Assembly (NCBI RefSeq): GCF_029338395.1
Contig: NZ_CP119809.1
Coordinates: 2,232,001 to 2,296,000 of the forward strand
From: Halorussus caseinilyticus
Lineage (GTDB): Archaea; Halobacteriota; Halobacteria; Halobacteriales; Haladaptataceae
Direction: 5' to 3'
DNA length: 64,000 nt
In this document: one piece after another, positions 2,740 through 59,240 of the stretch
Numbering within the stretch: position 1 is the stretch's first letter
Layout of the letters: every line of letters starts with the position of its first letter
The notes under the pieces: model-generated
What the model was told of the DNA's origin: nothing
The model's database searches: none
What the model saw: the letters and a program-made list of their open reading frames with translations, nothing else
Translations under genes and position numbers: made by a program

Positions 2740-3066
2740 CTGTCTCTCTTCGTGCAGTCGGCGCGCGCGGGTGCGCCCTCCGTGGCGCGCCATCGTCGCG
2801 CGAGGTCATCGAGAGCGGGGCGACCGATGGCTCGGCAGACGCGGTTTGTCTGCCGGTGTCTTCGGGAGCGGGGCGACCGAAGTCCTCGAAAATCGAAGAT
2901 TTTCGGGATGGAGCGAATCAGTGATTCCCAACAGCTCGTCGGAACTCGCTTCCGACGGTGGATGAGCATCGAGCGACCGAAAGGGAGCGAGACGCGAAAT
3001 CGGTTGGGGAGGGTGTGGCCCGCGGTGGCGGTGCCGTGCGGTCCTCACTGGTTCGAGCCTGAAGCT
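2740..3066 (+). repeat. Dispersed repeat R1, copy a (forward)
   Basis: Fills most of the gene-free gap 2632-3149. It is the inverted counterpart of 3765-4005. Matching blocks are GCGCCCTCCGTGGCGCGCC (2771-2790 region, reverse complement at 3910-3930), CGGTTGGGGAGG (3001 region) and GGTTCGAGCCTGAAGC (3051 region). An AT-containing hairpin, CGAAAATC-GAA-GATTTTCG at 2887-2905, sits in the middle and is absent from copy b. No transposase is encoded. It lies at the 3' side of the minus-strand JAMM gene. Confidence 0.65.
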
Positions 3067-3149
3067 ATCCCTCTGTCTCTTCCGTCTCGGGTCGAACCTC
3101 ACGCTAACCTTTCCCGTCGTCGTTCTGACCCTCCTGTCTCTCTCGACTC

Positions 3150-3764: not shown

Positions 3765-4005
3765 CTAGCTTCAGGCTTGAACCAATCAGGACCGCACCGC
3801 CCCGCACCGCGACCGGGGGCCTCACGCCTCCCCAACCGACTGCGCGTCTCGGTCGTCACTCCCTCCGGTCGTTCCTCCCTGCGATGCTCGTCCCCTCGCG
3901 CGACGATGGCGCGCCACGGAGGGCGCGCCAGCGCGCGCCGACTGTCGGAGACGAAACCAGTGCGCGCCAACTGTCGGAGGCTTCACCGAGCGCCGAAGCC
4001 GGAGG
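3765..4005 (-). repeat. Dispersed repeat R1, copy b (inverted)
   Basis: Fills the gap 3714-4052 upstream of the JAMM gene. Shares AGCTTCAGGCTTGAACCAAT, CCTCCCCAACCGACTGCGCG and the GGCGCGCCACGGAGGGCGCG block with copies a (inverted) and d (59.2 kb). A short internal duplication (CTGTCGGAG and GCTTCACCGA repeats) follows at 3945-4015. Confidence 0.65.
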
Positions 4006-7398: not shown

Positions 7399-7498
7399 AC
7401 CCCCTCTTTCGTGACCTGACCCTTAAAATCCTCACCTCCCCTACAGTCGTCAGACGCTCGTCGGAGGATAGTTTACCTCGGCGCAGGCGTGTCCGCCC

Positions 7499-7697
7499 CC
7501 GGACGCGCTCGGCCGACCAACCACCGGGAGGGATAAAGGGGCCGCGCGCTCGCGGGTCGCAGACCCGTGGTCGTCTCAGCGACCCCTCTCGGAGGTGAGC
7601 GAAGCGAACCGGAGAGATGTCGCTGAGCGACCGCGAGCGGGCGGGGGCTTTCGAGGCATTCGTCGTCGTGGCCTCCGCGGTCACGTAGCGGTCGGCT
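7499..7697 (-). repeat. Structured dispersed repeat R2, copy A
   Basis: Occupies most of the gene-free gap 7399-7760. On the minus strand it reads GAAAGCCCCCGCCCGCTCGC (outer-stem 5' arm), then an inner hairpin at 7569-7632, then a GGCCCCTTTATCCCTCCC 3' arm, and ends in TTGGTCGGCCGAGCG. Inner stem arms are CTCAGCGAC and GTCGCTGAG with ACATCTC on the 5' side and a lone A before CGACC. Copies B and D have different but equally complementary arms. See findings. Confidence 0.75.
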
Positions 7698-7760
7698 TCG
7701 ACAGAAACCGTACCGACAAATCGACCTCACAGACAGAACAGCGGACGAACGGAACCGACG

Positions 7761-29160: not shown

Positions 29161-29234
29161 TGGGTTTGGGCAGATTTGAACTGCCGACCTCCTCCATGTC
29201 AAGGAGGTGTCATAACCAACTAGACCACAAACCC
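29161..29234 (-). tRNA. tRNA-Val (anticodon GAC)
   Basis: 74 nt on the minus strand. Acceptor GGGTTTG pairs with CAAACCC (29162-29168); discriminator A. Anticodon stem CCTCC/GGAGG encloses loop TTGACAT, anticodon GAC. T-arm GGCAG-TTCAAAT-CTGCC. D-arm with GGTCTAGTTGGTTATGACACC. No intron and no encoded CCA. Confidence 0.95.
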
Positions 29235-30147: not shown

Positions 30148-30377
30148 CCGTGCCGGAACTGTCTCGGTTTCTTTAGACCCTACGACTAATTGTTTAGGAC
30201 TTATTTTTATTGCTGAAGAAATTGTTTTCCCGTCCCACGTCGTAGTCGTTCGCGGAGTCGTCGCCGGAGGCTATCGGCGCGTTCGCGTATCGAGTTTCGG
30301 GCGTCCGGGGAGTTGGCGGCGTCTGTCCAGACTGCGACCGCACAGCACTGCGACGGCGACTGTGAGAGGAGTGAAAA

Positions 30378-30500
30378 GCTAGCGGCGTGGACCAATCAGG
30401 ACCACACGGCACCGCCCCGCACGGCTAACACGTCGCAACTGCTCCGCACCGCCACCGTGGGCTACAAGCCCAACTGATTCCGTCGCTTCGCTCCCGACGA
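30378..30500 (-). repeat. Dispersed repeat R1, copy c
   Basis: Lies in the gene-free gap 30148-30677. Shares GCTAGC, ACCAATCAGGACC, ACCGCCCCGCAC and the following CCGCACCGCCACCGTGGGC block with copy b, in the same orientation. The rest of the gap holds AT-rich sequence at 30180-30230 and the trp promoter. Confidence 0.6.
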
Positions 30501-41977: not shown

Positions 41978-42084
41978 CGAGATTCGTTCTTTGGGACGTG
42001 TTTTTGATTTTCTACAGTGTATTTTTATTGCTTTAGAACTACTTTAGAATGCTTTCGCCGGGTACGTTCTGTCCCTCGGCAGTC

Positions 42085-42375
42085 GTCGCGGAAACCGTAG
42101 CGACGACGAACGTCTCGAAAGCCCCCGCCCGCTCGCCACCGGCAGACGTTCCTGCTCGCTTCGCTGTGCGGGCGTGCGACTTCCGAGGTCTGCGTCGCTT
42201 CGCTCCGCAGACGGTCGCTGGCCGACATATCCTCGCTCACTGCGTTCGCTCGGATAGGGGTCGGCCAGACGACCAAGCGGTGCGCGAGCGGGCGGCCCCT
42301 TTACCCCACCCGTGGCGGCTGGTCGGCCGAGCGTTCGCTGGTGGTTGGTTCGGCCGGGCGCGTCCGGGCGGATTG
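42085..42375 (+). repeat. Structured dispersed repeat R2, copy B (longest)
   Basis: Fills most of the gene-free gap 41978-42475. Outer stem 5' arm GAAAGCCCCCGCCCGCTCG at 42117-42135 pairs with CGAGCGGGCGGCCCC near 42283-42297. A variable arm follows (42136-42211), then an inner hairpin at 42213-42274: GGTCGCTGGCCGACATATCC on the 5' side and GGGGTCGGCCAGACGACC on the 3' side. Ends CTTTACCCCACCC and CTGGTCGGCCGAGCG. An AT-rich stretch just upstream (42000-42050) could be its promoter. Confidence 0.78.
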
Positions 42376-42475
42376 CGTCCTCGGCCGTTTCCCGGCGGCC
42401 GATTCACCGAGCGCGAGCGGTCACGGAGAAGTTGCCCGAATCCACCCCTAAATCGACGCTCGCCGTCCGCCGACC

Positions 42476-47864: not shown

Positions 47865-47995
47865 CGGACGCGCCCGGCCGACCAATCGACAGGGTGAGAT
47901 AAAGGGGCCGCCCGGTCGCGTGACCGCGACCGGGCGGGGGCTTTCTGGGACTTCTTCCCGACGATTCCGGCGGTAGCTGTCACGAGACGAGGCGA
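47865..47995 (-). repeat. Structured dispersed repeat R2, copy C (minimal)
   Basis: Lies in the gene-free gap 47725-48074. On the minus strand, GCCCCCGCCCGGTCGCG pairs with CGCGACCGGGCGGCCCC around a GTCA loop (47902-47941 on +), followed by CTTTATCTCACCC and TTGGTCGGCCGGGCG. It lacks the inner hairpin of the other copies. An AT-rich stretch (47775-47820) fills the rest of the gap. Confidence 0.72.
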
Positions 47996-59084: not shown

Positions 59085-59240
59085 GGCAGAGGATTCGGGG
59101 GTGAACGCCTCTGAAGCCCCCGCCCGGTCGCGGTCGCTGGCCGACATATCCGCGCCTCTCCGCACCGCCCGGCGCGGATAGGGGTCGGCCAGACGACCAC
59201 GCCTTCGGCGCGACCGGGCGGCCCCTTCATCCACCCGAAC
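59085..59240 (+). repeat. Structured dispersed repeat R2, copy D
   Basis: In the gap 59005-59470 between the two moeA genes. AAGCCCCCGCCCGGTCGCG (5' outer arm, 59114-59132) and CGCGACCGGGCGGCCCC (3' arm). Inner hairpin 59132-59198 has the same arms as copy B. Joins directly to repeat R1 copy d at its 3' end. Confidence 0.75.

Follow-up and report, generated by a model that had tools for sequence, protein, structure and literature searches.

A dispersed haloarchaeal hairpin element and its link to SSB genes on plasmids

Structure of the element in the window

The window is a 64,000-nucleotide stretch of Halorussus caseinilyticus DNA, in which an earlier note had described four copies (A-D) of one repeat. 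A covariance model recovered all four, two on each strand and all intergenic. Copies A, B, and D are the same element, whereas copy C proved to be a 54-nt stub that consists of the outer stem only. As delimited by the model, the copies are:

7525-7651, minus strand: copy A, full core
42118-42312, plus strand: copy B, core
47891-47944, minus strand: copy C, outer-stem stub with a short loop, the inner hairpins lost
59113-59238, plus strand: copy D, full core whose apical loop is degenerate

Copy B is built, in order, from AAAGCCC, the stems P1, P2a, P2b, and P2c, an apical loop, CCCCTTT, and a CCCAC tail. Its parts and immediate surroundings are:

41979-42475: gap of 497 bp between two convergent genes, holding copy B and missing from relatives
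42080-42117, plus strand: 5' flanking unit, a hairpin GTCGTCGC/GCGACGAC plus GAACGTCTCG
42118-42121, plus strand: AAAG of the closing stem P0 (GAAAG/CTTTC pairing in relatives)
42125-42136, plus strand: outer stem P1, 5' arm CCGCCCGCTCGC
42137-42212, plus strand: optional extra branch, itself composed of hairpins whose minus strand shows GCGAAGC-type loops
42213-42217, plus strand: P2a 5' arm GGTCG
42218-42226, plus strand: P2b 5' arm CTGGCCGAC, with the strongest covariation
42227-42232, plus strand: unpaired A and P2c 5' arm TATCC
42233-42251, minus strand: apical loop, GAGCGAACGCAGTGAGCGA on this strand, equivalent to two tandem sheared G.A steps and a GCA triloop
42252-42259, plus strand: P2c 3' arm GGATA and GGG internal loop (GGG opposite A)
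42260-42268, plus strand: P2b 3' arm GTCGGCCAG
42269-42274, plus strand: bulged A and P2a 3' arm CGACC
42275-42283, plus strand: junction linker AAGCGGTGC
42284-42295, plus strand: outer stem P1, 3' arm GCGAGCGGGCGG
42296-42309, plus strand: 3' signature CCCCTTTACCCCAC (CCCCTTTCAGTCCCACC in other genera)
42313-42369, plus strand: degenerate tandem units of ~30 bp, consensus GGCGGTTGGTCGGCCGAGCGTTCGCTGG, which follow most Halorussus copies

The element represents a haloarchaeal non-coding DNA family of ~105-125 nt, longer where branches are inserted. Its fold comprises a closing stem (P0/P1), a CCCC/CCCC internal loop, the P2 stem, interrupted by a bulge and an internal loop, and an apical hairpin that can be swapped. 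The most conserved positions include the unpaired ACAT, GGGG, the bulged A, CCCC/CCCC, and CTTTC-GTCC. The P0 closing pairs, GAAAG...CTTTC outside Halorussus, are weaker in copy B. The 76-nt branch between P1 and P2 of copy B (42137-42212) is absent from copies A and D and is also found in ~12 other genomic copies, some with further nested hairpins. Where copy B has the junction linker, other copies carry a P3 hairpin, such as CGGGTC-TGC-GACCCG. The 5' flanking unit is degenerate at other copies and often tandemly duplicated (~66 bp, left outer arm included).

Most of the base-pairing detail in the earlier note was borne out. The inner arms are CTGGCCGAC/GTCGGCCAG in copies B and D and CTCAGCGAC/GTCGCTGAG in copy A, the outer-stem switch GCTCG/GGTCG is compensated between copies B and D, and ACATNTC, GGGG, and the bulged A preceding CGACC are invariant. 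The outer-stem ends are shared in general, with the exception of the 3' outer arm of copy A, which reads GCGAGCGCGCGG, lacks GGGCGG, and has one C-C mismatch.

The window contains other repeats. A 51-nt inverted repeat at 2755-2805 and 3894-3944 (CAGTCGGCGCGCGCGGGTGCGCC...), 96% complementary with its arms 1.1 kb apart, belongs to a second dispersed family rich in GCGCGC. A further repeat family lies at 3028-3067, 3766-3805, and 30377-30416 (GCGGTGCCGTGCGGTCCTCACTGGTTCGAGCC / TAGCTTCAGGCTTGAACCAATCAGGACCGCACC), and a motif similar to it recurs upstream of element copies, for example at G000:C1:2299504.

Family size, conservation of the fold, and the folding strand

With copy B as query, BLAST returned 71 matching pieces from its own genome. 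A covariance model (R1) based on 29 short cores of this genome identified ~95 good copies as well as stubs, spread over the chromosome and smaller replicons in both orientations, which puts the family at ~95-100 copies here. Congeneric Halorussus genomes carry from 0 (G008) or 1 (G013) up to at least 61 copies, with about 100 at the top. When haloarchaeal genomes were searched with covariance models, as the earlier note had proposed, R1 matched 129 of 391 Halobacteria genomes, and a broader model (R2) found relatives in 194 of the 391, spanning 64 of 86 genera. Carriers among the named records are Halorussus amylolyticus, halobius, litoreus, ruber, salinisoli, and aquaticus, together with Haladaptatus, Haloarcula salina, and one MAG; phage records gave no match. 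With the Rfam 15 covariance models, only a tRNA exceeded the gathering threshold in the window (RF00005, 68 bits, at 29161-29234 on the minus strand). The element itself had no match, in line with the note, whose author recognised no named family, and a literature search by sequence motif returned nothing in haloarchaea. The family is larger and older than first described, and although four copies alone might be coincidence, the wider family is not. No comparable element is present in Rfam or in the literature searched.

Compensatory change was evident throughout the larger alignments. In the 29 copies taken from this genome, pairing covers 98.7% of cells and falls to 31-45% when the partners are slid, with double changes at 12 pairs; among 47 diverse sequences the values are 95.4% and 26-41%, with double changes in 25 of 31 pairs, all absolute pairing percentages being biased upward because the alignment was fitted to the model. 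We also applied a tree-aware test of our own, in which column substitutions were re-placed randomly on the branches of a FastTree topology and evaluated by a G statistic with average-product correction. In this test of 100 sequences, six pairs reached E<0.05, all within the structure and none outside it, and with 100 null alignments the ten top-scoring column pairs were all structure pairs. Branches with simultaneous compensatory changes averaged 4.35 per structure pair versus 0.09 for other column pairs. Given the tree-aware test and the slide controls, fitting bias is an unlikely explanation of these results. On either strand, the predicted fold also exceeds shuffles in stability (z of -4.1 and -3.4). 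Significant covariation thus supports the helices, and the claim that the fold is real and maintained by compensatory change is upheld. A lack of covariation over a larger alignment, which the note had named as a refuting outcome, was not what we observed.

Several features bear on which strand folds. The plus strand of the apical loop is rich in pyrimidines, whereas the minus strand reads as a ladder of GC/AT pairs and tandem G.A steps, the latter in PyGAPu context, that ends in a GNA triloop. Under strict scoring, 53 of the 160 copies have at least one G.A step and a GNA triloop on the minus strand, and none has a G.A ladder on the plus strand. The wobble pairs, with 88 A.C on the plus strand (equal to G.T on the minus strand) versus 84 G.T on the plus strand, or 17 versus 7 by pair columns, give a weak asymmetry that is suggestive only and that reaches 88 versus 36 only when one junction pair, itself G.T in 48 copies, is removed. 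Judged by these sequence patterns, folding on the minus strand is likely. The GCGAAGC mini-hairpin is exceptionally stable in DNA and is used as such (PMC4686876), which would favour DNA over RNA, and we infer that the element acts as single-stranded DNA, in the form of its minus strand.

Chromosomal dispersal and plasmid SSB genes

The gap that holds copy B differs among relatives. In four of them (G006, G012, G013, and G016) the stop codons of the neighbouring genes abut, TGA directly followed by CTA with 0 bp between; in five others 28-57 bp separate the genes, and in three the gap holds unrelated DNA. The whole 497-bp gap may therefore have been gained in this lineage, or else lost in those four relatives. 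A MITE would have terminal inverted repeats and a target-site duplication; the GAAAG...CTTTC ends of the element pair, but no target duplication is visible at this single resolved empty site. Copy A was uninformative as an empty site because its flanking genes are non-adjacent in the relatives examined. It lies at a synteny junction (window 7456-7753) whose left and right neighbour genes are far apart in those Halorussus relatives, as expected if dispersed copies recombine.

The copies lie between tandem genes on the opposite strand (32), divergent genes (24), convergent genes (20), and tandem genes on the same strand (15), so that Halorussus chromosomal copies, if anything, favour opposite-strand neighbours (32 versus 15 tandem cases). 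On the basis of these contexts, a terminator or 3'-UTR element was rejected. Across ~180 loci we found no recurrent neighbour protein family, transposase, or autonomous partner gene. A few gaps are occupied in two species (L066/L154, L104/L217, L121/L185, and L129/L196), with the element sequence turned over. Positional orthology was rejected as a sign of vertical inheritance, since by a rough estimate such shared gaps occur at about the chance rate and their sequences have turned over. Halorussus copies are flanked by degenerate tandem units, of 66 bp on the left and ~30 bp on the right, and by GT-rich minisatellites. The minisatellites that directly abut copies include (GTCGGA)n, (GTTGTC)n, and 36-bp GTCGCTGTCGGTGCGGTCTCTGTCGTTGGA units, and examples are located upstream of copies at L060 before 1501, L103 beyond 2624, and L093 beyond 2627.

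On plasmids the element has a fixed position and orientation. Haloarcula plasmids (pNG500, pHH126, and sister plasmids) usually carry one conserved copy, ~500 bp upstream of and codirectional with a gene for an OB-fold "SOSS complex subunit B family" protein. Homologues of this SSB protein are encoded in 110 of the 194 genomes. We surveyed 54 plasmid SSB loci with >700 bp of upstream sequence and found the end-motif pair GAAAGCCC...CCCTTTC-GTCC[AGC]CC at about -700 to -350, codirectional in 29 and reversed in none; the 29 represent few independent lineages, namely the Haloarcula plasmids, a single large plasmid family in which the element is divergent, and isolated cases. One locus of that family lies on contig C5 of this genome (L335). 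The divergent version has weak covariance scores (E 0.002-0.14), and its assignment rests on position and end motifs. In G389 (L299), a canonical element lies 0.35-0.45 kb upstream of the SSB gene, before the same conserved leader that elsewhere follows the divergent version, which argues that the two versions are positional equivalents. The SSB homologue is ~2 kb downstream of the element in G316 and G386. In pNG500 the neighbours of the element include a pilin, a conjugal transfer protein, and a type IV secretion DNA-binding protein, forming a conjugal transfer/T4SS cluster. Among ~130 Halorussus loci scanned, none has an SSB homologue nearby.

Candidate function and alternative readings

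The earlier observation is sound, and we place the family among dispersed hairpin elements, with a specific candidate link to plasmid single-strand biology that can be tested. The closest functional parallel we considered is provided by Frpo1 and Frpo2 of the F plasmid, non-coding hairpins that serve as single-stranded DNA promoters and precede ssb and further leading genes (PMC9849209). The Frpo hairpins form on the incoming strand and are shut off once the plasmid becomes double-stranded (PMC9849209). Like Frpo/ssi of F and ColIb-P9, the element is a non-coding hairpin that precedes an SSB gene by a few hundred bp and has the same orientation as that gene (29 of 54 loci, in a leading region that is itself putative). 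Its folded strand would be the template strand of the gene; the GA/GNA loops of the minus strand speak for this assignment, and the wobble asymmetry is weak. More than one copy is possible in the bacterial systems (PMC9849209), and the element is present twice in L299 and once in pNG500. Unlike Frpo/ssi, it is archaeal, lacks bacterial -10/-35 sequences, is unrelated in sequence, and has ~100 chromosomal relatives in Halorussus. No TATA/BRE promoter is recognisable in the hairpin.

Our preferred reading, which we hold as possible and still short of probable, is a strand-folding element that is Frpo-like on plasmids and has spread as a non-autonomous chromosomal repeat in Halorussus. The minus strand would act as single-stranded DNA and would be the template strand of the downstream SSB gene. 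On plasmids that enter or replicate in single-stranded form, the hairpin could serve as a landing site at the head of the putative leading region, by analogy most likely as a Frpo-type single-strand promoter or primer site, and possibly as part of an origin of transfer. Position, orientation, and strand would fit the Frpo model, and they would suit a primer site or a portion of a transfer origin almost equally well. In Halorussus and some other genera, the module would have proliferated on the chromosome as a solitary repeat that is non-autonomous and in which swapped and nested hairpins are tolerated because only the folded strand is recognised. Copies A-D would be such dispersed copies, either derived from the plasmid module or ancestral to it. 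We regard as doubtful the more specific proposal of an archaeal equivalent of Frpo/ssi, a single-stranded-DNA promoter or priming site found across the class Halobacteria, with a folded strand that is recognised when plasmids conjugate and with ~100 chromosomal copies in Halorussus.

The earlier note had proposed a selected RNA fold. Selection on the fold is supported by the covariation; RNA is not established, given dispersed solitary copies, empty sites, and mixed gene context, and compensatory base changes in repeats alone do not prove RNA. The signs of DNA spread that the note had set against an RNA are largely present, with ~100 solitary copies, a range of 0 to ~100 per congener, empty sites, and turnover. 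A structured non-coding RNA made from dispersed copies, such as an antisense-strand regulatory RNA or a 3'-end or antiterminator element, is rather unlikely. It would account for the strong covariation and for a fold that beats shuffles on either strand, and GA tandems occur in RNA too, but the copies show no consistent promoter, gene context, or strand relative to neighbours, and the high copy number and empty sites also speak against it. Moreover, the loops are GNA triloops, as in very stable DNA mini-hairpins (PMC4686876), and not GNRA or UUCG tetraloops. With minus-strand loops, and with the minus strand being the template of the plasmid SSB gene, the fold-bearing strand would be antisense to that gene, unlike an mRNA leader. 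Passive palindromic DNA, whose arms are matched by replication template switching and which spreads by recombination with no selected function, is highly improbable. Strand switching can homogenise hairpin arms, and Halorussus intergenic DNA near copies is full of tandem duplications and microsatellites. This reading is already strained by the conservation of unpaired positions and of the non-Watson-Crick GA/GNA loops, by persistence over 64 genera, and by the fixed position and orientation on plasmids.

An improbable alternative is that the element is a transposon-end repeat, a PATE- or REP-like non-autonomous element moved on folded single-stranded DNA by an IS200/IS605-type (Y1/HUH) or other transposase. 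Solitary dispersed hairpins, one-strand asymmetry, nested hairpins, and empty sites are also seen in the PATEs and SMRs of Haloquadratum walsbyi, the former having near-terminal palindromes related to IS605 ends and the latter being ~110 bp long, >95% identical, and bounded by terminal inverted repeats (PMC3119063). Both resemble the element in being haloarchaeal, non-coding, transposase-free, palindromic, present in many copies, and subject to nested insertion into palindromes. The element differs from them as one compound covarying hairpin, highly divergent in sequence and found in 64 genera; PATEs of the IS200/IS605 type have two sub-terminal palindromes and no TIR. The Y1 transposase domain PF01797 gave 0 hits in this genome and in the copy-rich congeners G001, G002, G009, G010, and G016, although other Halorussus genomes have 1-7, and a Y1 transposase (IS200/IS605 or RAYT) was rejected as the present mover in this genome. 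Neither a recurring transposase gene beside copies nor a flanking tetranucleotide or target duplication was found. REP/BIME sequences with their RAYTs are likewise extragenic dispersed hairpins recognised on one strand, but REPs are shorter, at 20-40 bp, and carry a GTAG/CGTC tag (PMC3733652), and this genome has no Y1 enzyme.

Another comparison is with integron attC sites, which are ~60-150 nt long, conserve structure over sequence, have an extrahelical base and a variable terminal hairpin, and are recognised on the bottom strand. The element shares this size range, structural conservation, extrahelical base, variable terminal hairpin, and probable one-strand recognition. It differs from attC in being solitary, in both orientations, without a cassette array or an integrase association among its neighbours, and the absence of a recurrent neighbour gene also argues against this identity.

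The element would be a class-wide structured intergenic element of haloarchaea, in abundance comparable to bacterial REP/BIME. If it is indeed a Frpo/ssi counterpart, the Halorussus chromosome may contain many single-strand entry or priming sites. The link to SSB genes and a conjugation cluster opens two questions to experiment, namely the means by which archaeal plasmids express and prime incoming single-stranded DNA and the location of leading regions or transfer origins in haloarchaea.

Two minor observations concern the plasmid loci. Between the element and plasmid SSB genes lies a highly conserved non-coding leader of ~500-600 bp, conserved across genera (seen at L324, L319, L325, L329-L332, and L335) and containing several hairpins, such as GCGCTCTCGCTCGCGCCC...GGGCGCTCGCGAAGGCGCGAGCGAGAGCGC. 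In G389, a TFB (TFIIB) gene is located ~2 kb past the plasmid SSB gene (L299:10911-11849).
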